This document shows, piece by piece, positions 7,613 through 22,081 of a stretch of 64,000 nucleotides of DNA. Made by a program: the position numbers and the translations under genes. The first letter of the stretch is position 1, and each line of letters opens with the position of its first letter. This stretch comes from Eoetvoesiella caeni (GTDB taxonomy: Bacteria; Pseudomonadota; Gammaproteobacteria; Burkholderiales; Burkholderiaceae_B), in the NCBI RefSeq assembly GCF_003315175.1, contig NZ_QNRQ01000003.1:62001-126000 (forward strand), read 5' to 3'. Below the pieces are notes generated by a model. The model had not been told where the DNA came from. It worked only from the letters and a program-made list of their open reading frames with translations, and did not search any database.

Positions 7613-7692
<80 letters not shown>

Positions 7693-9981: not shown

Positions 9982-10029
9982 ATGAGCCCAACACCTTTAG
10001 TGCGTCGCACTGCAAAAGAACCGGCATGA
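9982..10029 (+). CDS. Putative 15-residue leader peptide upstream of pgaA
   Basis: Short frame MSPTPLVRRTAKEPA. It has the better ribosome site (GAAGGAG, seven bases before the ATG), whereas pgaA itself has only a weak AAAGAA. Its stop overlaps the pgaA start as ATGA. Translation of pgaA could therefore be coupled to this frame. In E. coli the pgaA leader is a target of CsrA, which binds GGA motifs; the GGA in this ribosome site would be a natural place, but that is inference. Whether the peptide has any function is unknown. Confidence 0.5.
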   Translation: MSPTPLVRRTAKEPA

Positions 10030-12470
10030 ACGACATGACACGCGCCCTTTGCCTGCCCTTGATGCTGCTCTTGAGCGCGGCGCCCGCGCTTGCGTTGGCC
10101 GCTTCGGATTACGACATGCTGATTCAGCGAGCCCGCAATGGCGACTACCAGCCGGCCCTGGAAATGCTGCAGCAGCGCGAACAACAAGGCCAGGCAGACA
10201 TGCGCAGCCGCTATGACCACATGCTGATCGCGTCGTGGGCGGGTTTGTCCAATGAAGTCCTGCGGTTGTATCAACAGTCAGGGCAGGCTCACGAAAAACT
10301 GCCGGCATCCGTTCTGTTGGCGGTAGCCCGCGCATATCGGGATACCAAAGACTGGGATCAGGCCCTGGCTCTATACCGCACTGGCCAGAAGCGCTACCCG
10401 AAGGAGCAGGCCTTTGCACTGGACGAGGCAATGACCCTGGCCGATGCCGGCCAGACCGATCAGGCGCTGAACCGGCTGCAAGCTATCGTCAGCGCCAACC
10501 CCAGCAGCGCTGACGCTCATTTGGCCTTGAGCTATGCCTTCCGCGTCAAGCGGGAACCCTACGCGGCCCTGCAGCACGCCGACCGGGCGCGCATACTGGC
10601 ACCCAATAAGACAGCCGTCATCCGCGGCTATATCCTGGCCCTTCAACAAGCGCGCTTGGCTCTTGCCGCATTGCGCACGGCTCAGGCCCACCCACAAGCG
10701 GTCAATGCGGCAGAAATGCGCGAACTGGAAGGTGATTACGCCGCCGAATTGAGCAATCTGGCTTCCATGCCGACGCGCACACGGCAAGAGCGATACGACA
10801 TCGCCGACAAAGCCCTTGAGCGCTACCAGAACGAGCTCGAGCAATGGCAGTCCTCCGATGCGCAAAGGTCCGTTCTGCGTGCCCGGATAGACCGCATGCA
10901 AGCGCTTGAAGCACGTGCACGCATGCAAGAGACCGTGAATGAATACGAACGGCTGATCGCCGAAGGGATTACGCCGCCCGACTACATATTGAACGAGGTG
11001 GCCGCCGCTTATCTTTATCTGCGCCAACCCGACAAGTCGCGCGACTTGTTCCAGAAGGCGCTGGATAGTGAAATCGCCCAGCCGGGAGAAATTGAAAAAG
11101 CAGACGATCAAACCAGCCTGTTTTATTCAATGATAGAAAGCGGGCATTTCAATGAGGCCGACAAGCTGATAACCGATGCCCAGGCGGGCCAGGCCACATG
11201 GATTTACATCAAGGGCGTTCCGCAAAGACGCCCCAACGATGCACACCTGATCCTGGCGCAGACGGCGGCCGTCGGAAAGCAATACACCCGTGATCTGGCC
11301 GACGCCGACCAAAGCCTTTCACCCATGCTGGCACTCGCCCCGCGCGATGTAAGCCTGCGCGTCGCGCTGGCACAAATCCACAGGGACAGAACCTGGCCGC
11401 GCCAGGCCGAAAAGGAATTGAAGATGGCCGAAACCCTGGAACCGCAGAATCATAACTTGATCATCGAGCAAGGTATGACGGCGTTGACTCTGCAGGACTG
11501 GAGGCAAGCGGAAGTGTTGAAAGACACGGCCCTGGCAAGATATCCCGAATCCGGATCAAGCAAGCAGTTGGCGCGGGAATGGGAAGTACACCAGAAATCG
11601 GAATTGCGCGTCGCTGCTTACCTGGACAGCGCATCCAACAGTCCGGTTTCTGGCAACGGCGACTTTGGCGTCGACACCGTTTTATACACGCCTCCTATCG
11701 ATTACAACTGGCGGGGATTCGCCGGAGTCGGCTACGCCCATGGCGACTTTGAAGAAGGCCGCGGCATCTACCGGTGGATGCGCGGCGGCGCCGAATGGCG
11801 CGGACGCGACCTTACTGCGGAAGCGGAGGTCTCGGCCAACAACTATGGATTCGGCACCAAGACCGGTGCGCGCCTATCGGCCGCCTACGACCTGAGCGAC
11901 CAGTGGCAGATAGGAGCCTCGGCGGCATTTCGCTCCCGCGAAACCCCGCTGCGTGCGTTGGCCAACAATGTCTACAGCAACAAACTGTCGATCTTCGCGC
12001 ACTGGCAGGCCAACGAAGGGCGCGAATGGGCTTTCTCGGTATCGCCCAGCCGATTCAGCGACGGCAACAACCGGCTAGAAATGCAAATCAATGGCCGCGA
12101 ACGCGTCTACAGTTCGCCGCGCGTTGCCGTCGACCTGCATCTGGACCTCAGTGCATCGCGCAATACTTTGGAGGATGCGCCCTACTTCAATCCCCGCTCC
12201 GACATCACCGCCGTGCCGTCCGTAAGCCTTACCCATACGCTCTACCGCCATTACGACACCGCACTGGAACAAACCTTCACGCTGGGCGCAGGCGCTTACA
12301 CGCAACAAGGTTACGGCACGGGCGCAATCGGGCTGCTCGGATACGGCTTGCGCTACCGCTTCAATAAAGTCGTGGATGTGGGCCTCTCGGTCACTGGCGT
12401 CAGCCGGCCTTATGACGGCGTGCGAGAGCGCGACCTGAACGTCATGGCCAACCTCAACTTCCGCTTTTAG
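10026..12470 (+). CDS. pgaA: PgaA: outer membrane poly-GlcNAc export porin with TPR domain
   Basis: Outer-membrane exporter of poly-beta-1,6-N-acetylglucosamine (PgaA/HmsH; BpsA in Bordetella). The 814-residue protein has a Sec signal peptide ending near ALALAA (about residue 26), a periplasmic TPR region (about 30-500) with repeated helix pairs, and a C-terminal beta-barrel of about 300 residues from RVAAYLDSASNSP onward. It ends in NLNFRF, with the terminal Phe usual for outer-membrane barrels. It is the first gene of pgaABC; pgaB follows after 9 bp. Translation may depend on the overlapping leader frame. Confidence 0.95.
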   Translation: MNDMTRALCLPLMLLLSAAPALALAASDYDMLIQRARNGDYQPALEMLQQREQQGQADMRSRYDHMLIASWAGLSNEVLRLYQQSGQAHEKLPASVLLAVARAYRDTKDWDQALALYRTGQKRYPKEQAFALDEAMTLADAGQTDQALNRLQAIVSANPSSADAHLALSYAFRVKREPYAALQHADRARILAPNKTAVIRGYILALQQARLALAALRTAQAHPQAVNAAEMRELEGDYAAELSNLASMPTRTRQERYDIADKALERYQNELEQWQSSDAQRSVLRARIDRMQALEARARMQETVNEYERLIAEGITPPDYILNEVAAAYLYLRQPDKSRDLFQKALDSEIAQPGEIEKADDQTSLFYSMIESGHFNEADKLITDAQAGQATWIYIKGVPQRRPNDAHLILAQTAAVGKQYTRDLADADQSLSPMLALAPRDVSLRVALAQIHRDRTWPRQAEKELKMAETLEPQNHNLIIEQGMTALTLQDWRQAEVLKDTALARYPESGSSKQLAREWEVHQKSELRVAAYLDSASNSPVSGNGDFGVDTVLYTPPIDYNWRGFAGVGYAHGDFEEGRGIYRWMRGGAEWRGRDLTAEAEVSANNYGFGTKTGARLSAAYDLSDQWQIGASAAFRSRETPLRALANNVYSNKLSIFAHWQANEGREWAFSVSPSRFSDGNNRLEMQINGRERVYSSPRVAVDLHLDLSASRNTLEDAPYFNPRSDITAVPSVSLTHTLYRHYDTALEQTFTLGAGAYTQQGYGTGAIGLLGYGLRYRFNKVVDVGLSVTGVSRPYDGVRERDLNVMANLNFRF

Positions 12471-12479
12471 GAAACGGCG

Positions 12480-14531
12480 ATGCTCGAATCCCTCTCCCGC
12501 ATGCGTGCCTTGTTGCTTGGCTTGTATACCTTGTTGCTGCTGGGCGGATGCGCCGCCAATTCAGTGCCATTCGTTCCGCCCGACCAGCGCCCCTTCGCCG
12601 CGAATGAACAGCCCTGGCCCCAGGGCAGCTTTGCCGTACTAGCCTACCATGATATTGAAGACCGGGATCCCGACCAGACCTATGTAGCCGTGCGCGCCGA
12701 CAATTTGCAAAGGCAGTTTGCCTGGCTGCGCGAGAACAACTACCAGCCTGTTTCCATAAGCCAGATATTGGCCGCGCGCGATGGCGGCCCTGCGCTGCCG
12801 CCCAAAGCCATCCTGCTTTCATTCGACGACGGCTACAGCAGTTTCTACACCCGGGTCTTTCCCATGCTGAAGGCCTACAACTGGCCTGCCTTGCTGGCGC
12901 CCGTCGGTACATGGGTCGATACACCCGCCGACAAACCCGTCGACTTTGCCGGTGTATCGACACCCCGAGGGCGCTTTCTTAATGTGGCTCAACTGCGCGA
13001 ACTGTCCAAGTCGCCGCTTATAGAGATAGGCGCCCATACCTACAACCTCCACTACGGCGTGCTGGCCAACCCCCAGGGCAATCTGCAGCCGGCCGCGGCA
13101 ACCTATATCTATGATCCCAAGAGTGGCAAACATGAAAGCCGCGCGGCATTCGAACGCCGCATTACCGCAGACGTGGAGCGCGTCAACCGCCGTTTCAAGG
13201 AAATCACGGGCAAAACGCCGCGGGTCTGGGTTTGGCCATATGGCGCGGCCAATGGGCAGACCTTGCAGATACTTAAGAAGCACGGCTATCAAATGGCGCT
13301 TACCCTGGAGGAAGGGAGGCTGGGCAATGTGAACAGCCTGATGAATGTACCGCGCCTGCTCGTATCCGAGGATCCGCGGCTGTCGGAATTCGCGAACGCC
13401 GTGATTTCTGTCGAGAACCGCAATCCCATACGGGTTGCGCATGTCGACCTGGACTATGTTTACGATCCCGATCCGGTACAAATGGATCGCAACGTGGGCG
13501 AGTTGGTTCAGCGCATTGCCGACCTGAACATCAATACCGTGTTCCTGCAAGCTTTTGCCGATCCGGACGGCGACGGACTGGTCAAGTCGGTTTACTTTCC
13601 GAACCGGCACCTACCCATGCGTGCCGATCTCTTCAACCGGGTGGCCTGGCAATTGATGACGCGCGCCTCCAGTACCGCTTCGGTTCAGGTATTTGCCTGG
13701 ATGCCTGTACTGAGTTTTGATCTTGCGCCCTCTATCGCCCGGGTCGAGCGCTGGGATCCCAAGACAGGCGCTGTCGGCATTGACCCGAAGCAGTATCGGC
13801 GGCTCTCTCCGTTCGACCCCGAAGCACGCAAGCAGATCACGGAGATCTACGAAGACCTTGCCAGAAGCAGCAGCTTCGGCGGCATCTTGTATCACGACGA
13901 TGCCTTGCTCTCGGACTTCGAGGATGCCAGCCCTCCAGCCCTGGCCGCATACCGGCAGGCCGGCCTGCCGGATACTCCGGCAGCCTTGAACGCCGACCCG
14001 GCCATTGCCCAGCGCTGGATGCGTTTTAAAAGCCGATACCTCATCGACTTCACCAAGACGCTGACACAACACGTTCGTAATATTCGCGGGCCGCAAATCC
14101 AGACCGCGCGCAATATCTATGCGCCGCCCATACTCGAACCGCAAAGCGAAGCCTGGTTCGCACAGAACCTGGACGACTTCCTAAGCACTTACGACTGGAC
14201 GGTCCCCATGGCCATGCCGCTGATGGAAGGGGTCCCGCGCAATCGCGCCGATGCATGGCTGGACAAACTGGTCGATGCCGTGGCTGCCCGGCCAGGCGCG
14301 CTGGACAAGACCGTCTTCGAAGTCCAGGCGCGCGACTGGAACCGCCAGGCCGATACGGCCGACGCCGACGCCGGCGCCATCGACTCAAAGCTGATTGCCC
14401 ACTGGATGAATCGCCTGCTGTTACGCGGAGCAACCAGCTTTGGGTACTACCCCGACGACTTTGTCAAAAATCAACCTCGCGTCGATATTATCCGGCCCGC
14501 CATTTCAACCTCCTGGTATCCATTCAAATGA
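12480..14531 (+). CDS. pgaB: PgaB: poly-GlcNAc N-deacetylase lipoprotein
   Basis: Periplasmic, outer-membrane-anchored enzyme that partly de-N-acetylates poly-GlcNAc before export. Lipobox LGGC puts the lipidated Cys at residue 24. The N-terminal carbohydrate esterase family 4 domain (about 50-310) carries the catalytic and metal residues: SFDDGYSS with Asp116/Asp117 and the metal histidines His186 and His191 in AHTYNLHYG. The C-terminal domain (about 320-680), starting at RVAHVDLDYVYD, matches the glycoside-hydrolase-like domain of PgaB. Length 683 residues fits the family. Its stop overlaps the pgaC start by four bases. Confidence 0.95.
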   Translation: MLESLSRMRALLLGLYTLLLLGGCAANSVPFVPPDQRPFAANEQPWPQGSFAVLAYHDIEDRDPDQTYVAVRADNLQRQFAWLRENNYQPVSISQILAARDGGPALPPKAILLSFDDGYSSFYTRVFPMLKAYNWPALLAPVGTWVDTPADKPVDFAGVSTPRGRFLNVAQLRELSKSPLIEIGAHTYNLHYGVLANPQGNLQPAAATYIYDPKSGKHESRAAFERRITADVERVNRRFKEITGKTPRVWVWPYGAANGQTLQILKKHGYQMALTLEEGRLGNVNSLMNVPRLLVSEDPRLSEFANAVISVENRNPIRVAHVDLDYVYDPDPVQMDRNVGELVQRIADLNINTVFLQAFADPDGDGLVKSVYFPNRHLPMRADLFNRVAWQLMTRASSTASVQVFAWMPVLSFDLAPSIARVERWDPKTGAVGIDPKQYRRLSPFDPEARKQITEIYEDLARSSSFGGILYHDDALLSDFEDASPPALAAYRQAGLPDTPAALNADPAIAQRWMRFKSRYLIDFTKTLTQHVRNIRGPQIQTARNIYAPPILEPQSEAWFAQNLDDFLSTYDWTVPMAMPLMEGVPRNRADAWLDKLVDAVAARPGALDKTVFEVQARDWNRQADTADADAGAIDSKLIAHWMNRLLLRGATSFGYYPDDFVKNQPRVDIIRPAISTSWYPFK

Positions 14532-15859
14532 TCGATAGACTAATCGCCTTTGTCGTCCTTTGCCTTGTACTGGGAGCACCTGTCGGCTTGCTGGCTACTC
14601 TGACAAGCGACGTACTGTTGAACTTCGTCTTTTTCTATCCCTTGTTCATGTCCGGCATATGGATCGCGGGCGGGCTGTATTTCTGGTTCGTCTGGGAGCG
14701 GCACTGGCCGTGGCGGCCGGGACTGCCTACGCCATGGCTCAAGGGTTCGCCTTTGGTCAGCATTATTATTCCTTGCCACAACGAAGAAGCGCATGCCGAA
14801 GAAACCATACTGGCAGCGCTGCAGCAGGACTATCCTCATGTCGAAGTCGTCGCCGTCAACGATGGCTCCACCGACGGCACGGGGGATCTGTTCGACAGGC
14901 TCACCGCGGAACACCCGCGCCTGCGCGTCATACACCTGGCCCGCAACCAGGGTAAAGCCATGGCGCTGCGCATGGGAGCTCTGGCTTCGCGCAGCGACTA
15001 TCTGGTTTGCATCGACGGCGACGCCATGCTGGAACCCAGCGCCGTAAGCTATCTGGTGGCCCCCCTGGTCAACCACCCGCGCGTTGGCGCGGTAACGGGA
15101 AACCCGCGCATACGCACGCGCTCGACACTGATAGGCCGCATACAGGTGGGCGAGTTCTCATCCATTATCGGCCTGACCAAACGCGCCCAACGCGTATACG
15201 GCCAGATATACAGCGTCTCCGGAGTAGTGACGGCATTTCGGCGCGAAGCGCTCGAAGAGGTCGACTACTGGAGCGTGGACATGATCACCGAGGACATCGA
15301 TATCACGTGGAAACTGCAGCGCAAGCATTGGACGATCTTCTTCGAGCCGCGCGCCTTGTGCGGCGTGCTGATGCCCGAAACCTTAAGGGGATTGTGGCAT
15401 CAGCGCCAACGCTGGGCCCAAGGCGGCGCCGAGGTCCTGCGCAAGAACCTTGATTGCCTGGGCAACTGGGAACAGCGCCGCATGTGGCTTCTGGTGCTGG
15501 AGTATGTCTTGTCGACAGTCTGGGCCTTTGGCGTTGCTCTGACGGTATTGCTTTGGCTGCTTGGCATGATTGTTCCGCTGCCGCCCAGCATACATATCCC
15601 CTCGCTGCTTATTCCGTCTTTCACGGGGATGGTGCTTGCGCTGATGTGCCTATTGCAATTCAGTGTAAGCGTTCTTATCGATCGCAGGTACGAGCCGGGC
15701 CTGTCGAACTCGTTGTACTGGATCGTCTGGTATCCATTCGTCTACTGGCTCATTAGCTTATGTACAACCTTGACAAGTTTCCCCAAAGTAATGCTTAGGG
15801 CTCGGCGCCGTCGCGCCAGATGGATCAGCCCGGACCGAGGCATAAAGGAGTCGCCATGA
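14528..15859 (+). CDS. pgaC: PgaC: poly-beta-1,6-GlcNAc synthase
   Basis: Inner-membrane family 2 glycosyltransferase that polymerises UDP-GlcNAc. The start at 14528 overlaps the pgaB stop (ATGA); a longer frame inside pgaB is rejected. The 443-residue protein has N-terminal membrane helices (about 1-55), then GT2 motifs: VSIIIPCHNEE, VNDGSTDGTG, the DGD motif (Asp163-Asp165), TEDID (254-258, catalytic base) and QRQRWAQGG (292-300, QxxRW), then C-terminal membrane helices. In E. coli PgaC works with PgaD, and c-di-GMP binds both. Here no intact pgaD follows; a pgaD-like gene lies at 20268-20738. Confidence 0.95.
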   Translation: MIDRLIAFVVLCLVLGAPVGLLATLTSDVLLNFVFFYPLFMSGIWIAGGLYFWFVWERHWPWRPGLPTPWLKGSPLVSIIIPCHNEEAHAEETILAALQQDYPHVEVVAVNDGSTDGTGDLFDRLTAEHPRLRVIHLARNQGKAMALRMGALASRSDYLVCIDGDAMLEPSAVSYLVAPLVNHPRVGAVTGNPRIRTRSTLIGRIQVGEFSSIIGLTKRAQRVYGQIYSVSGVVTAFRREALEEVDYWSVDMITEDIDITWKLQRKHWTIFFEPRALCGVLMPETLRGLWHQRQRWAQGGAEVLRKNLDCLGNWEQRRMWLLVLEYVLSTVWAFGVALTVLLWLLGMIVPLPPSIHIPSLLIPSFTGMVLALMCLLQFSVSVLIDRRYEPGLSNSLYWIVWYPFVYWLISLCTTLTSFPKVMLRARRRRARWISPDRGIKESP

Positions 15860-15924
15860 TTAAAATTGTTCGTACACCATATACCCGTACCACCCATTTG
15901 TCCTCAGAGTTTCAGGCACAATAA
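15856..15924 (+). pseudogene. Possible vestigial pgaD start (22 codons)
   Basis: A 22-codon frame whose ATG overlaps the pgaC stop (ATGA) and which has AAAGGAG eight bases upstream. It begins MIKIVRTPYT and stops after QAQ. This is the place of pgaD in pgaABCD operons, and the first residues resemble the MxxIxRxP start of PgaD proteins, including the displaced copy here (MVVILRSP). No hydrophobic segment follows in any nearby frame. It could be the remnant of the original pgaD or a chance coupled peptide. Confidence 0.4.
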
Positions 15925-16298
15925 AGAACCAATCGGCAGTAAATTGCATTTGCCGCTAGCTGGCCTTTCAGGGGTGCCATGCAACGCAAAGTAGGGCAGT
16001 TTTTTGCTTACTTTACGTCGAAAATCTGTTTGTGAGCGTTTCTAGTTAGTTGGTACTTGTAGGCTGCTCGTATTGACATCAAGGCGGCAGGATGTATGCC
16101 GGCCAATTTACCCAAATAGGCAAATAATGTGGTTTGCTGCACATTACTGCCGCTGGGTGTTCGATAATATCAGTACAAACCGGTGTCGTGTAGATCTTTT
16201 AACCCATAGATACATAATATCAATGGCTTAGTTACATTGGCCTTAAATGGCTTTGAAATTTTAATCGTTGACATCTGGAAAACCCTAATTTCAGCCCA
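15925..16298. other. AT-richer gene-free region between pga and curli operons
   Basis: About 370 bp with lower GC than its surroundings, lying between two convergent operons. No open frame of note, no transposase remnant and no tRNA were seen. A partial hairpin (AAAGTA 15988-15993 / TACTTT 16009-16014, T-rich loop) could help end pgaC transcription. The composition and the truncated frame at its left edge suggest a rearrangement scar. Confidence 0.45.
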
Positions 16299-16616
16299 TC
16301 AGGCCGGCACCGGGCACTCGAAAGAGTAAGTTTTTTTCAGCACTTGCCCATCCGATATTACGATTTCTATGTGACAACTATCTTGCGACTGCCTTGTTAT
16401 TGACATGCGCACCAACGGAGTCGCTACGTTGGCCTGGGCGGTAACCGTGCCCGCCTGCCTCATTTCGGTTCGTCCCTGCTTGCCGCTTTTTACTGTATGA
16501 AGGCTGTATTGCAAAGTCCTGCTTTCAGGGGTTTGCACATAGGGAATAATCACGTTCGGGTGGGTATTGGACCCGGTCTCGAGCCATACCTGCAGATTCA
16601 AATCGGCTGCCATCAT
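16299..16616 (-). CDS. CsgH/CsgC-like curli accessory protein
   Basis: Small protein (105 residues) last in the curli operon. It begins MMAADLNLQVWLE and is predicted mostly beta, with two cysteines (DSCHIEIV and FECPVPA) that could bond. Size, position after the curlin genes and strand-rich pattern fit the CsgC/CsgH group, periplasmic chaperones that keep curlin from aggregating inside the cell. No obvious signal peptide precedes it, which is odd for a periplasmic protein. The start has AGGAGA upstream; either of two adjacent ATGs may be used. Family assignment rests largely on context. Confidence 0.65.
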   Translation of the reverse strand: MMAADLNLQVWLETGSNTHPNVIIPYVQTPESRTLQYSLHTVKSGKQGRTEMRQAGTVTAQANVATPLVRMSITRQSQDSCHIEIVISDGQVLKKTYSFECPVPA

Positions 16617-16644
16617 GATTGTCTCCTTGTGTACGCGCCTTGCG

Positions 16645-16680
16645 GTTCGCGGCAGGCCCCGTACGAGGCCTTCCGCGAAC
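16645..16680 (-). promoter_or_regulatory. Intercistronic stem-loop between csgA and the CsgH-like gene
   Basis: Two nested inverted repeats: outer arms GTTCGCGG / CCGCGAAC and inner arms AGGCC / GGCCT around an 8-base loop. There is no T-run after it, so it is more likely an mRNA stabiliser or partial attenuator that keeps the upstream curlin message more abundant than the downstream gene. Confidence 0.65.
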
Positions 16681-16704
16681 TGGCCCTGGCTCGGGCTTTA
16701 GGTA

Positions 16705-17463
16705 TTACCAGCCTACCTGGGTAATGTTGCTGACGTTCATGGCGCCAAGCTGGACTGAAGTACCTTTCAGCGAGGAGCCCGTCTGGGTAATGGTAGAGGT
16801 ATTGTTGAAGCCGCCTTGGTAGATGTCGGCGGATTGGCCTATGCCATACTTCTGGGTCGTCGTCGCTACGTTAAGAGCGCCTTCCTGGACGATCTTGGAA
16901 TCCGCCCCCCAGTTCCCCATCTGAGTGGCATTGGCCGTGTTCCTATAGCCAATTTGATAGACATCGGCCTTTTGGTCGACACCGAACGATTGATTCGTAT
17001 TGGCTACGTTCATGACGCCTTCCTGGACGACCTTCGAGTCGGCCCCGGTATTCCAAGACTGCTTCACGCTGGCGGTATTATTGAATCCGGCCTGATAGAC
17101 ATCAGCTTTCTGATTATTGCCATTTTCCTGGCTAGTGCTGGCCACGTTCAGAAGACCTTTCTGTTCGACCTTGGAAGTGGCATGGTTCGTGTCTTTTTGG
17201 CTGGCGTTAGCCGTATTGTTGAAGCCTTTCTGGCCAACGTCGATGCTGGAGTGCTGGGTATGCTGTTGTGAAGCCGAAGCTACATTCAAAGCGCCCTCCT
17301 GTCCTATATAGGCGGTAGCATCCGAGTTGTATGACTGCGAAATAGCCGCGTCGTTGTTGAAACCGTTCTGGTAGGTTTCGCCCGTCGAGCCCGCAGCAAA
17401 TGCTGTTGGTCCGGCAAAAGCCAGGGCAAGTCCGGATGCCAATGCGCAAAGAGTGATTTTCAT
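16705..17463 (-). CDS. csgA: CsgA-like major curlin with ten repeats
   Basis: Secreted amyloid subunit of curli fibres. The 252-residue protein has a Sec signal peptide (MKITLCALASGLALAFAG, cleavage near AFA-AG) and then ten curlin repeats of about 23 residues ending three residues before the C-terminus (VGW). Each has the Q-x-G-x-x-N-x-A-x-x-x-Q pattern. E. coli CsgA has five repeats, so this is about twice as long. Repeats alternate between a GFNNTA type and a G-hydrophobic-NVA type, giving a 46-residue double repeat. The start is placed at the signal peptide Met; the frame is open 25 codons upstream. It follows csgB by about 100 bp. Confidence 0.93.
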   Translation of the reverse strand: MKITLCALASGLALAFAGPTAFAAGSTGETYQNGFNNDAAISQSYNSDATAYIGQEGALNVASASQQHTQHSSIDVGQKGFNNTANASQKDTNHATSKVEQKGLLNVASTSQENGNNQKADVYQAGFNNTASVKQSWNTGADSKVVQEGVMNVANTNQSFGVDQKADVYQIGYRNTANATQMGNWGADSKIVQEGALNVATTTQKYGIGQSADIYQGGFNNTSTITQTGSSLKGTSVQLGAMNVSNITQVGW

Positions 17464-17566
17464 GGTGAAACTCCTTTGGAGTAGACAAGACCAGGGTTTA
17501 ATACGCCACCCGGCGGCCTTGGTACCGGGTTTTGTCAAAAAATCGATGTCACGAGTGCTGTTTCGT

Positions 17567-18115
17567 TTACTTGAAGACTTTCAGCTGCAGATGATTGCCA
17601 ATCTGGTAGATGGGCGCCATCACGCCCGGAGTGGTTTGCATGACGCTTAACTGATTGAGGTTGCCAATCTGGTTCAGCGTGGCGCTGGCATTGTCCGTGT
17701 ACTGACTTACGCCTGCCTGGTTGCCCATGCCATACTGATTGGCTATTGCGGTATCGTTGCTGCCGTATTGCGCAACCTGGACTCCATTGCCGATGCCGTA
17801 CTGGGCCGCCACGGCCAGGTTGTTGAAGCCCACCTGATTAATGCTGACGCTGTTGTCGCGGCCGGTCTGGCTTACCGACGCATTCTCGAAAGCTCCTTTC
17901 TGACTGACCTGGCTGGTGTTCAACTCTCCCTTTTGAACCACCATGGCTTTAAGAGAGGTTTGGCCCAGCTCGGCGACGGGAAGCTCGGACATTGAAGCCA
18001 AGTCCGGGTTCTGGCTGTAGGCGGCCAGGGGAACGGCCAGCAGCAGGGCGAAGGCGCCCATCGCCAGCCCGCGACGCTCTTTGCCGCGGGTTTGGGTTGT
18101 TTTGAATTGAGACAT
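17567..18115 (-). CDS. csgB: CsgB-like minor curlin (nucleator)
   Basis: Curlin-repeat protein of 182 residues, upstream of csgA in the position of the nucleator CsgB. It has a basic N-terminus (MSQFKTTQTRGKERRG), a hydrophobic signal segment and cleavage near AYS-QN. About six less regular curlin repeats follow (VGFNNLAVAAQ, YGIGNGVQVAQ, YGMGNQAGVSQ, IGNLNQLSVMQ). The tail HLQLKVFK is basic; E. coli CsgB also has a divergent last repeat with basic residues, linked to cell-surface attachment. Preceded by CAGGAG. It starts 39 bp after csgG. Confidence 0.88.
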   Translation of the reverse strand: MSQFKTTQTRGKERRGLAMGAFALLLAVPLAAYSQNPDLASMSELPVAELGQTSLKAMVVQKGELNTSQVSQKGAFENASVSQTGRDNSVSINQVGFNNLAVAAQYGIGNGVQVAQYGSNDTAIANQYGMGNQAGVSQYTDNASATLNQIGNLNQLSVMQTTPGVMAPIYQIGNHLQLKVFK

Positions 18116-18154
18116 GGCTGACTCCTGGTAATGTGGTGTGGATCGACTTCACAT

Positions 18155-19105
18155 TTACAACGTGGATTGAGTGTCGGCCACAGCTGGGGTAGAGGCTCCA
18201 GAGGTGGGGTTGTCGTGGCGAGGCGTTACCGTCACCGCATAATCGTTTTCAGTTTTCAGATACCGCTGGATGGCCGGCGAATTCCAGTCGGCGGAGTTCC
18301 TCAACTGCCACAGATTGTTTTTGATGCCCTGCACGGTCAGGTGCATGACGGCGGCATCTATTGCTTCTTTGACTGCCAGCTGCGCGGGCTCGTTATGGGT
18401 GTAGCCGCCTTCGATCTCGAGCAGGTCGTAGTAATTGACGAAGCGGAAATAGCTGGGGTGAATCTCATAGGAGTAGATGGTCTTGGTGGTCGAGACACTG
18501 TCCAGAACCGCGCCTGTCATGACGTCGACCGCGCGCAGATTGATGGTGACTTGATCCACGCTGTACTTGGTCGACAGCCCGATACCAAGGAATTGCGCAC
18601 CCAGCCCGCCGGTGCGGGTATTGCTGTCATATGCGATGACTCCGCCTTCAAGAATGATGGAGGCCGGCAGCAGGTTGGGAACTGATGTCGTGCCTTTGCC
18701 CTGGGGCTGCTCGTCAACCGCACGCAGCACGCGGCGCTCTGTCAAAAGCGACTGCAAGCCTTCGCGTTCCACCGGGGTGTACCAGCCGGAATCTTTCAGC
18801 GCTTTCATCAGCATCGAGGCAGCGCCTTGGGTGACCGCTGTCGAGAATGAGCTGTCCGGCGCGGGCTTGTATTGCCCCGTTTCGTCCCGGAAGCCATAGA
18901 CGGCCGCTACGATTTTTTTCTGCGGCGGCGGCAACCTCATTAAGGCTATGGTCGAGGGTGTCGCGGGGGTCAATTGCGCCTCGTCGGAGACATTCGAGGG
19001 CTTTTGCAAGGCGCAAGCCGACAAGGTCAAAGACGCCAGCCCAGCTACGAACAGGCGTCGAGCCCGAAGATAGGAGGGCAGGGCAAGTAGTTTGGCGCCT
19101 TTCAT
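18155..19105 (-). CDS. csgG: CsgG curli secretion channel lipoprotein
   Basis: Outer-membrane lipoprotein that forms the nonameric channel for curlin subunits. Lipobox LSAC with Cys31, longer than usual before the signal core. Family marks include KKIVAAVYGFRDETGQYKP, GWYTPVEREGL, the LLPASIILEGGVIAYDSNTRTGGLGAQFLGIG segment (constriction-to-barrel region) and YSYEIHPSYFRFV. The length of 316 residues is slightly above the E. coli protein (277) because of a C-terminal extension after RYLKTENDY. The start overlaps the csgF stop by four bases (ATGA). Confidence 0.95.
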   Translation of the reverse strand: MKGAKLLALPSYLRARRLFVAGLASLTLSACALQKPSNVSDEAQLTPATPSTIALMRLPPPQKKIVAAVYGFRDETGQYKPAPDSSFSTAVTQGAASMLMKALKDSGWYTPVEREGLQSLLTERRVLRAVDEQPQGKGTTSVPNLLPASIILEGGVIAYDSNTRTGGLGAQFLGIGLSTKYSVDQVTINLRAVDVMTGAVLDSVSTTKTIYSYEIHPSYFRFVNYYDLLEIEGGYTHNEPAQLAVKEAIDAAVMHLTVQGIKNNLWQLRNSADWNSPAIQRYLKTENDYAVTVTPRHDNPTSGASTPAVADTQSTL

Positions 19106-19488
19106 TTCAGGCTCCCGGAAGACTCCAGGCCCGCGCCTGTGGTGCTATTGAAATCGATCAGGCGCAATGTCCCAGTATCGATGCCGTAGGAGTAATAGCT
19201 GTCTCCCTTTTTGAATATAAGGGTATTGTCGGTTTGAGCGACGATGCCCAACGAGTTCATGAAGTCCAGATCGTCGGTGGGCAGCGGATAGCTTTTGCCG
19301 GACTGGGCCTTTTGGAGGAGATATGAGCCATTCAGCGGATTTCCGCCGAAGGACGGGTTCACGGGCGTATAGACCAGCTGTCCCGCCGCCGCGGGGCCTG
19401 CGGCAAGCCACGGCAGTGCGGCGAGGGCCGCCGCCAAAGCCCGCAGTCCCGTTCTATGAACGCCGTATTTGCTTTTTTGGGTATTCAT
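19102..19488 (-). CDS. csgF: CsgF curli assembly protein
   Basis: Accessory protein that couples CsgB to the CsgG channel at the cell surface. The 128-residue protein has a signal peptide ending near PAAA-GQL. The mature N-terminus QLVYTPVNPSFGGNPLNGSYLL is the characteristic CsgF segment that inserts into the CsgG pore. It sits between csgE and csgG, adjacent to csgE with no gap. Confidence 0.95.
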   Translation of the reverse strand: MNTQKSKYGVHRTGLRALAAALAALPWLAAGPAAAGQLVYTPVNPSFGGNPLNGSYLLQKAQSGKSYPLPTDDLDFMNSLGIVAQTDNTLIFKKGDSYYSYGIDTGTLRLIDFNSTTGAGLESSGSLK

Positions 19489-19938
19489 TTACATCTCCTC
19501 GGGACCCAAGTCGGCGTCCTGAAATAATTTGCGACGAAGGTCGATTTCCGCTACATTTTTGCGAACGATCTCTATGGCTTGCTTGCTTTCGTCCCTGGCC
19601 CGCGACCGCGCTGGCGACAGGAAGGTGTGATAGACATTCTGGTTTTCATAACTGATCCAAATTTCACTGCCGAATTTGGCCGTAGGTCTTTCAGTAATGG
19701 CGAGCGTGTCTTTTGATGCGGGATATAGCGCTTGCCAGATACTCGAAAAGCTTGTGTAAAAATTCCAGCCCACGACAGTAATGGTCCGGTTGATGATCAG
19801 TCCACGTAGAGGCTCATTACTGATGCGACCTGAATCGAGACCGTTACCTTGCTGGCGAGGTTCCTGTGCTCGCACATCGGCAGACTGCCCCGCCAATGCA
19901 AGCATGATCAAGCTGGATACAAGGCCGGATCGGAACAC
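19489..19938 (-). CDS. csgE: CsgE curli secretion specificity factor
   Basis: Periplasmic adaptor that caps the CsgG channel and directs curlin to it. The protein has 149 residues with a signal peptide (MFRSGLVSSLIMLALAGQSADVRAQ). The CsgE pattern is visible: LIINRTITVVGWNFYTSFSS, then TLAITERPTAKFGSEIWISYEN and VYHTFLSPARSRARD. It is the first curli gene of the leftward operon csgE-F-G-B-A-H, preceded by GGAGGATAAAAA. Confidence 0.92.
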   Translation of the reverse strand: MFRSGLVSSLIMLALAGQSADVRAQEPRQQGNGLDSGRISNEPLRGLIINRTITVVGWNFYTSFSSIWQALYPASKDTLAITERPTAKFGSEIWISYENQNVYHTFLSPARSRARDESKQAIEIVRKNVAEIDLRRKLFQDADLGPEEM

Positions 19939-19999
19939 TTTTTATCCTCCAGTACGTAAGCCGTATGAGTCTTTGTCGTTGCTAGGACTTAGCGCTTGA

Positions 20000-20054
20000 G
20001 ATAATGTTACTTATCTTGAGAGTGCTTACATATAGGACAGAAGCTGTAAGTCAA
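20000..20054 (-). promoter_or_regulatory. Candidate promoter and operator of the curli operon
   Basis: On the minus strand a -35 TTGACT (20054-20049) and -10 TATGTA (20032-20027) are 16 bp apart, about 90 bp upstream of csgE. Just downstream is an inverted repeat GATAA-N6-TTATC (20000-20015) flanked by CTTGAG on both sides, a possible regulator site. The whole 19939-20210 stretch is AT-rich. Prediction only. Confidence 0.5.
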
Positions 20055-20211: not shown

Positions 20212-20243
20212 GGAAATAAAAACGGCCGCAGTACACGGCCGTT
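20212..20243 (-). terminator. Terminator of the displaced pgaD-like gene
   Basis: Eight-base stem AACGGCCG / CGGCCGTT with a seven-base loop; on the minus strand it is followed by TTTATTTCC, so six of the last stem and tail bases are T. It lies 25 bp after the pgaD-like stop and separates that gene from the curli operon. Confidence 0.8.
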
Positions 20244-20267
20244 CGATCCTGAAGGTGGCGGTGCCTG

Positions 20268-20738
20268 TCAGGCAATGTGCGCAGCATCGAAGTAGTCGGC
20301 ATTGCTTACTGGCGGTATGCGCGACTTGTCGGTTATCACGGCCGCTATCTCGCCGTCGTCCCGGTGATGGATGACCGTGACCTGGCTGTCCTGGACCTCA
20401 TGTACCTGCGTGTCGGTGATGGCGAACTTCGCCGCGGTAATTTCATTATTGGGCACACCGCGGCTGACGGCGCGATGCAATTCGGGGAAAATCCGCTTTC
20501 GGTACGTACCCCATACGGTAAAAAGCATGGCATTGAAAACCGCAATGGTCAGGTAGATGAGCAGTGTCTGCAAGGTGGGCGCCATGCTTTGCGCCGAGGA
20601 CTCGCTTGGGTTGAAGGCGCCGGCCAGTGATATGGAAAACAAACCGTGAACGATCAAGTACAAGAATCCTGTCCAGCCGACGGCTGTCATGCATGCGTCG
20701 ATGACGCCGGTGCTAGGGGAACGAAGTATGACAACCAT
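20268..20738 (-). CDS. pgaD: PgaD-like poly-GlcNAc synthase subunit, displaced from pgaABC
   Basis: Inner-membrane partner of PgaC. The 156-residue protein has the PgaD layout: short start MVVILRSP, first membrane helix (about 16-38, AVGWTGFLYLIVHGLFSISL), a periplasmic loop, second helix (about 56-78, LLIYLTIAVFNAMLFTVWGTY), a basic YRKRIF at the cytoplasmic side, then a soluble tail. The start at 20738 is chosen because PgaD proteins begin with this IxRxP stretch; the frame extends 13 codons upstream inside the divergent gene. It is about 4.4 kb from pgaC, in the opposite direction, and its first 11 bases overlap the start of the divergent LuxR gene. It has its own terminator. Confidence 0.8.
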   Translation of the reverse strand: MVVILRSPSTGVIDACMTAVGWTGFLYLIVHGLFSISLAGAFNPSESSAQSMAPTLQTLLIYLTIAVFNAMLFTVWGTYRKRIFPELHRAVSRGVPNNEITAAKFAITDTQVHEVQDSQVTVIHHRDDGEIAAVITDKSRIPPVSNADYFDAAHIA

Positions 20739-21483
20739 TATCGTCGTCGAGCCGCATGCCATTTTAAGAATGGGCATTGTTCAGCTGCTCTCCAGTGTAG
20801 AGCCTGATATTAATCTTGAAGGGTTCGATTATTCAAGTCTAACGCAGCCCCATGCCGAACAACGCCAAAGCGACCTGGTTTTACTGTCGGTATGCGTTGC
20901 CGAAGACGTCGACGACCTAATTGACGCCACACAGCGCAGGTACGATCCGCGCTCCATAATATTGCTGTCGGAAAACAATAACGTTCAGGCGCGGATACGG
21001 CCATTGCCCAAGCTGGTGGCCGGCCACGTCCTGAAAAACGCCGCACCCGAGGTCCTGCAAGCATCTACCCGCCTGGTTCTGGCCGGCGGCACCTGTTTTC
21101 CGCCATCGCCTTCCTGGACCGCCAGCGAAGCCGAGCGCAACCTGGTCCAATACGAAGAAGCCAAATGGGCTTTGGCTGAAAGCGCCCCCAGGCCGCTCAA
21201 GAAAGCTTGCGAAGAATCCGCAATGCTGGGCCTTACACCGCGCCAATACGAAGTCCTGGTCCTGCTGGCACGCGGCTATCCCATGAAAATGGTGGGGCGG
21301 CATCTGAACATATCGGTCGCCACGGCCAAGGCCCACACTGAAACCTTGTATCAGCGCCTGAACGTCCATAATCGCAATGCGGCGGTATATGCGGCCATTT
21401 CGCGCGGAGCCAAGCTGGGTTGGGCATCGATAGGCGGCAACCCGGACTTAAACCAGAACGACGAAGACAAGTCAGCAGCGTAA
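20728..21483 (+). CDS. LuxR-family regulator with pseudo-receiver domain (CsgD-like)
   Basis: Transcription factor of 251 residues with an N-terminal receiver-like domain (about 1-125) and a C-terminal LuxR helix-turn-helix (about 165-230: GLTPRQYEVLVLLARG, ATAKAHTETLYQRLNV). The receiver lacks the phosphoacceptor: where the third strand should end in Asp it reads DLVLLSVCV, and the acidic pair is VEP. The Ser (ILLSE) and Lys (VLKNA) positions remain. CsgD of E. coli also has an unphosphorylatable receiver, and the gene stands beside curli and pgaD, so control of this locus is inferred. The start has GGGGA upstream; an earlier in-frame ATG at 20689 is less likely. Confidence 0.85.
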   Translation: MTTIIVVEPHAILRMGIVQLLSSVEPDINLEGFDYSSLTQPHAEQRQSDLVLLSVCVAEDVDDLIDATQRRYDPRSIILLSENNNVQARIRPLPKLVAGHVLKNAAPEVLQASTRLVLAGGTCFPPSPSWTASEAERNLVQYEEAKWALAESAPRPLKKACEESAMLGLTPRQYEVLVLLARGYPMKMVGRHLNISVATAKAHTETLYQRLNVHNRNAAVYAAISRGAKLGWASIGGNPDLNQNDEDKSAA

Positions 21484-21520
21484 ATAAAAACCGAATCCGC
21501 GCCGCGCCCTGTGGCTGCGG

Positions 21521-22081
21521 CTACATCATGCCCATTTCAAGGCGCGCCAGTTCGCTCATCATCTCGCGCCCCCAGGGCGGATCCCAGACCAGATTGACAT
21601 TGACATCGCTGACGCCGTGTATGGACAGCAGCTTGACCCTGGCTTCGTCGGCAATCATGGTTCCCATGCCGCAGCCGGGGGCGGTCAAGGTCATGTCCAC
21701 ATCGATGCGGTAGTCGTCCGGCCCCAGCGTCTCTACCTCGCAGCGGTACACCAGCCCCAGATTGACGATGTCGACGGGAATTTCGGGGTCGAAGCACGTT
21801 GCCAGCAGACTCCAGGCCATGTCGCGAACGGATTCCGCGCTAAGCGGGCCCTCTGGCATGACCGGCGTATTCACGGCTTCGGTGGGCTCGAACCCCAGGG
21901 CATCGGCGTCCACGCCTTCAACCCGGTATAAGTTGCCATCCACATAAACCGTGTAGCTGCCGCCCAGCTTTTGCGTTATCTGGGCCATGCAGCCCTTTTC
22001 TATGGTGACCGGCGCCCCATAAGGAACGCTGACTGCAGGACAGTCTCGGCTAACCTCGATTTGCTCTCTTTCGTGATGCAT
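21521..22081 (-). CDS. sufT: SufT Fe-S assembly protein
   Basis: MIP18/DUF59-family protein of 186 residues that helps mature Fe-S proteins alongside SUF. It shows the family signature FDPEIPVDIVNLGLVY and the Cys-containing MTLTAPGCGMG near the end, after an N-terminal extension typical of SufT (ITQKLGGSYTVYVDGNLYRVEG). The start at MHHEREQIEVSRD is preferred; the open frame continues 18 codons upstream. It is the last gene of the SUF operon, 13 bp after sufU, and is convergent with the LuxR gene. Confidence 0.92.
   Translation of the reverse strand: MHHEREQIEVSRDCPAVSVPYGAPVTIEKGCMAQITQKLGGSYTVYVDGNLYRVEGVDADALGFEPTEAVNTPVMPEGPLSAESVRDMAWSLLATCFDPEIPVDIVNLGLVYRCEVETLGPDDYRIDVDMTLTAPGCGMGTMIADEARVKLLSIHGVSDVNVNLVWDPPWGREMMSELARLEMGMM

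Follow-up and report, generated by a model that had tools for sequence, protein, structure and literature searches.

A pgaD gene split from pgaC in Eoetvoesiella caeni, very probably by one local inversion that also flipped six curli genes

The window, by which we mean the whole 64,000-nucleotide stretch of the Eoetvoesiella caeni contig analyzed here, carries pgaA, pgaB and pgaC, a complete curli set (csgA, B, C, E, F and G), a pgaD gene and a gene for a LuxR/NarL-type regulator (luxR; Table 1). PgaA, PgaB and PgaC all exceed their TIGRFAM equivalog cut-offs. PgaC contains the DGD, TED and QRQRW motifs and, when aligned with its E. coli counterpart, is identical at 251 of about 442 positions; a second pgaC was sought in the genome and none was found, which makes this the sole copy. 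Sequence matching against solved structures returned only distant glycosyltransferases for PgaC and no match for PgaD. A tRNA-Pro (ggg) gene is located at 7616-7692, about 2.3 kb upstream of pgaA.

Table 1. Features of the PNAG-curli locus; positions are those of the 64,000-nucleotide window.
Feature	Position	Strand	Basis or remark
pgaA, PNAG export porin, 814 aa, intact	10026..12470	+	TIGR03939, 774 bits (cut-off 366.65)
pgaB, PNAG N-deacetylase, 683 aa, intact	12480..14531	+	TIGR03938, 852.8 bits (cut-off 321.9)
pgaC, PNAG synthase, intact	14528..15859	+	TIGR03937, 595.8 bits (cut-off 422.3)
Orphaned pgaD start, 22 codons	15856..15924	+	Shine-Dalgarno AAAGGAG; ATGA overlapping the pgaC stop; MIKIV RTPYTRTTHLSSEFQAQ
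Probable left inversion breakpoint interval	15869..15885	+	Junction comparison
Putative old luxR upstream region, now 3' of pgaC	15886..16298		Length only
csgC, curli chaperone	16299..16616	-	PF10610, 1.4e-13
csgA-like curli subunit gene	16705..17463	-	PF07012 and CsgA model
csgB-like curli nucleator gene	17567..18115	-	PF07012 and CsgB model
csgG, curli secretion channel, Castellaniella type	18155..19105	-	PF03783, 2.8e-70; tree
csgF	19102..19488	-	Gene position; tblastn matches to the relatives' csgF
csgE	19489..19938	-	PF10627, 1e-32
Putative csgE promoter element, TCCTATATGT...TAACATT	20000..20037	-	Common to Castellaniella-type loci
Intrinsic terminator of pgaD	20220..20244	-	11-bp stem and T tail
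pgaD, 156 aa	20268..20738	-	PF13994 and TIGR03940 matches; first residues MVVIL read from luxR antisense
Probable right inversion breakpoint interval	20709..20725	-	Junction comparison
luxR/narL-type regulator gene	20728..21483	+	GerE PF00196; N-terminus MTTIIVVEPH as in relatives

A preliminary description had called the 156-residue product PgaD-like, and profile searches bear this out: the frame scores above the curated cut-offs of both PF13994 (69.2 bits, cut-off 27, E-value 5e-19) and TIGR03940 (60.4 bits, cut-off 31.45). The lack of a PgaD-family match, named beforehand as a result that would speak against the description, thus did not come up. The tryptophan equivalent to E. coli W71, invariant in 45/45 sequences, is retained, as are the tyrosine and lysine at the positions of E. 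coli residues 74 and 76, after helix 2. A structure model contains two long helices (8-41 and 52-92) at low confidence (mean pLDDT 61.8). The GC3 of the gene (0.71) resembles that of pgaABC, and its frame stays open up to an alternative ATG at 20777, which would give a protein of 169 residues. With its full-length frame, its conserved residues and a normal profile score, PgaD looks intact at the level of sequence. It is encoded by a single copy: a genome search for another pgaD elsewhere gave none, and the position 3' of pgaC holds only a 22-codon stub (15856-15924).

The arrangement described earlier was likewise recovered. The pgaC gene ends at 15859 on the plus strand, and pgaD lies on the minus strand across a gap of 4.41 kb. 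Filling the gap are csgC, csgA, csgB, csgG, csgF and csgE, which have the same orientation as pgaD; luxR follows on the plus strand and the suf genes on the minus strand. A strong intrinsic terminator with an 11-bp stem (20244-20220) stands just 3' of pgaD, as had been proposed; a comparable scan saw no terminator 3' of pgaD in the relatives. Like the pgaABCD/hmsHFRS locus of E. coli K-12 (NC_000913, 1086106-1092289), E. caeni encodes four Pga proteins, all above their family cut-offs, and its PgaD shares the invariant tryptophan. In contrast to the E. coli gene, however, pgaD does not close the operon; it sits 4.4 kb off in the opposite orientation and is followed by a terminator of its own.

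Comparison of gene order among relatives placed this arrangement in context. In more than 25 loci of family relatives, including a same-genus genome (G001, locus L018), Pusillimonas noertemannii (L035) and Parapusillimonas granuli (L034), the genes pgaA, pgaB, pgaC, pgaD, csgE, csgF, csgG, (csgB), csgA, csgC and luxR follow one another on one strand, with suf next on the other strand (type A). Castellaniella and a neighboring genus have a second order, csgEFGBAC-pgaABCD-luxR (type B). PNAG and curli genes with a common LuxR-type regulator thus appear as a conserved matrix block in many Alcaligenaceae-like genera, arranged in one of these two orders. In the same-genus genome, pgaA (12996-15448) is apparently split into two reading frames, by a frameshift or a sequencing error. 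The expectation that pgaD normally follows pgaC was confirmed: a same-strand pgaD lies 3' of pgaC in about 150 other loci (96 loci, 74 of 74, and 18 of 18 class-level judgeable loci; the sets overlap and some contigs occur twice, hence the approximate total), and E. caeni is the sole exception found. Its order differs from type A by a single inversion of the pgaD-to-csgC segment. The genes, the suf neighbors and the adjacency of pgaD and csgE are those of the type-A block in P. noertemannii and P. granuli. What sets E. caeni apart is the inverted segment and a curli set whose genes and promoter match the Castellaniella type.

The two junctions carry a readable trace of such an event. At the end of pgaC, the ATGA overlap between the pgaC stop and the pgaD start, found in 43/43 relatives tested, is retained and is preceded by a strong Shine-Dalgarno sequence (duplex -8.2 kcal/mol); after MIKIV, the frame runs into unrelated sequence and then a stop. 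Read in this way, the stub is the old pgaD start and the scar of the left breakpoint. The displaced PgaD begins with MVVIL-RSPSTGVIDAC, and its MVVIL portion is the luxR start read in antisense. Fusing the left-hand start with the right-hand body yields MIKIVRSPSTGVIDAC..., which keeps the frame and the length and is in register with the relatives; on the sequence, a normal PgaD start reappears once the two breakpoints are rejoined. Against a profile of relatives, the rejoined form scores 144.3 bits and the present form 142.7 bits. The breakpoints are placed only to about 17 bp, and TTCGT or ACC are each possible as the joint. If the segment is turned back, the former gap between csgC and luxR would have been 432 bp (102-689 bp in relatives); the 413 bp at 15886-16298 gave no sequence match to relatives. 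We had also considered the stub as a duplicated pgaD start and dropped this idea, since a plain inversion accounts for both sides without duplication.

Taken together, it is very probable that a single local inversion, about 4.85 kb long (about 15.87-20.72 kb), turned pgaD and csgEFGBAC around between pgaC and luxR. The gene did not move alone: it was flipped in one block with the six curli genes. Rearranged pgaC, missing pgaB and missing pgaD are documented in an operon-clustering survey of pga operons (PMC7112194), the main text of which does not contain the word "inversion"; an inversion of pgaD with curli genes is not among the cases described there.

The curli genes have a history of their own. 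CsgG falls inside a Castellaniella-type clade (support 100/100, identity up to 89%), whereas PgaC, and PgaB, PgaC, PgaD and LuxR combined, cluster with other relatives (SH-aLRT 100). Grouping of pga and luxR with type B was rejected (p-AU 0.031); the corresponding test that placed csg with type A (p 0.078) is uninformative, as it only shifts E. caeni to the base of type B. Upstream of csgE, an element consisting of CCTATRNR followed about 20 bp on by TAACATT is present in E. caeni and in 8/8 type-B loci, and in 0/25 type-A loci; this upstream region is 80% identical over 61 bp to that of a Castellaniella-type locus (L205). The linked LuxR-type regulator is a candidate for binding this element. 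The Castellaniella-type block (Castellaniella sp. UBA6218, L046; L029, L205-L208) shares its curli proteins (CsgG 80-89%) and csgE promoter element with E. caeni, but in that block pgaA comes after the curli genes and pgaD lies 3' of pgaC, and the pga and luxR genes of E. caeni belong to another clade. Since curli genes and promoter match the Castellaniella type, whereas pga and luxR fall among the other relatives, the curli part (16299-20049) is, on this phylogenetic evidence, a separate acquisition with its own promoter, that is, a horizontal replacement from a Castellaniella-type source. Curli replacement and inversion together need at least two events. A second, complete curli cluster is present on the same contig (L204, C3 about 282-287 kb), with luxR, csgE, F and G, two subunit genes and csgC; its CsgG is only 62% identical to the copy described here.

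A different route to the same gene order would be that pgaD was deleted 3' of pgaC and a second pgaD arrived in reverse together with the foreign curli genes. The separate phylogenetic origin of the curli genes and a motif common to the stub and the gene (RTPYT/RSPST) fit this scenario, yet the curli donor type lacks the pgaD-csgE adjacency, E. caeni PgaD resembles type A (44%) more than type B (32%), and the stub tail is accounted for by an inversion without duplication; we regard such an arrival as very unlikely. A chimeric join would fit the fact that the inverted arrangement is known from one draft genome (50 contigs, contamination estimate 3.29%) whose curli genes cluster with another genus. 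An assembly artefact of this kind would nevertheless have to produce two reciprocal junctions at matching sites within a single 478-kb contig, both free of repeats and complementing one another codon by codon, and the GC3 of csgB, csgG and csgF resembles that of their neighbors; its probability is minimal. Equally slight is the chance of an invertible element, by which cells would alternate between pgaD 3' of pgaC (PNAG on) and the reversed state (PNAG off or separately controlled), even though the breakpoints lie at the starts of both genes to be switched and both orientations are readable. Inspection by eye of the open reading frames between 10 and 32 kb recognized no recombinase, relatives have one orientation only, and no inverted repeats above chance were found at the segment ends, on which ground a site-specific or repeat-mediated inversion was rejected. 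The similarity of the two break sites is also at chance level (best 17-bp identity 11/17, longest match 5 bp; shuffled sequences often reach these values), which makes an illegitimate break-and-join likelier than a programmed switch. A 17-bp pattern linking the break sites was set aside as evidence, having been constructed from both sites themselves.

Analyzing the new surroundings of pgaD, we noted that its start (ATG 20738) and that of luxR diverge with an 11-bp overlap; the luxR start is of the same kind as in relatives. The predicted Shine-Dalgarno duplex is almost absent at ATG 20738 (-1.7 kcal/mol) and reaches -6.4 kcal/mol at ATG 20777. A promoter scan found none for pgaD at the consensus threshold. 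As read from these starts, PgaD is without its native ribosome-binding site and without translational coupling to pgaC, the ATGA overlap being lost. On the far side, luxR and sufT converge (21483-21523), 37 bp apart and with no clear terminator between them. Read-through from suf would pass antisense through luxR into pgaD.

These features also suit a reading in which pgaD is decaying: the inversion would have cut both translation and transcription, PNAG would be off or much reduced, and the frame would be open only because the event is recent. Besides the near absence of a Shine-Dalgarno sequence at ATG 20738 and the missing consensus promoter, the location of the start within the luxR reading frame and the orphaned old start 3' of pgaC speak for it. 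However, the frame is full length, every conserved residue is retained with a normal profile score, GC3 has stayed like that of an equally intact pgaABC, and ATG 20777 offers a start with a Shine-Dalgarno sequence. We consider decay possible, although on the unlikely side. As a whole, the explanation that we find likely is an inversion followed by continued PgaD function from a separate, weaker transcript.

According to this preferred explanation, an inherited pgaABCD-csgEFG-csgBAC-luxR block would have undergone the inversion with one break a few codons past the pgaD start and a second immediately ahead of the luxR start codon, so that pgaABC and luxR stayed in place while pgaD and the six curli genes flipped. 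The PgaD start would have changed from MIKIV to MVVIL, possibly with 13 additional residues if ATG 20777 is used; translation probably begins at that codon or at ATG 20738. luxR would have lost its old upstream region, whereas pgaD ends at its own terminator and the curli genes keep their own promoter, brought along from the Castellaniella-type source. The pgaD transcript may stem from a weak promoter inside luxR (antisense) or from suf read-through, and PgaD would still be made and still be the partner of PgaC, probably at a lower supply. Alternatively, luxR and pgaD, whose starts diverge within one another's reading frames, might form mutually antisense, mutually exclusive transcripts for the regulator of the block and for the synthase activator; PgaD supply would then act as a bistable on/off control of PNAG, with curli under its own promoter. 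We hold this to be unlikely, and if true, it would be a new circuit created by the inversion.

PgaC and PgaD form one enzyme that is switched on by c-di-GMP. The preliminary description had proposed that its assembly depends on two separately controlled transcripts. PgaC and PgaD are encoded on opposite strands and therefore on separate transcripts, and, judged from the gene arrangement, it is certain that PNAG synthesis draws on both; the two may also be controlled separately. In E. coli, the PgaD level is set post-translationally by PgaC and c-di-GMP, and PgaD is unstable without them (PMC8461298). Thus, a separate pgaD transcript need not change much. By the same token, a surplus of PgaD would be cleared and a shortage would limit the synthase. 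By analogy with E. coli, the suggestion that PgaD could be the limiting switch for polymer synthesis is plausible and reasonable in direction.

The locus, itself of a known kind, represents a lineage-specific operon rearrangement whose scar can still be read. E. caeni provides a natural strain with pgaC and pgaD on opposite strands and the old start still visible, and hence a convenient system for asking whether the co-expression and translational coupling of both subunits matter and whether PgaD supply limits PNAG. For the family, the PNAG-curli matrix block emerges as conserved throughout, yet shuffled by horizontal exchange and inversion.
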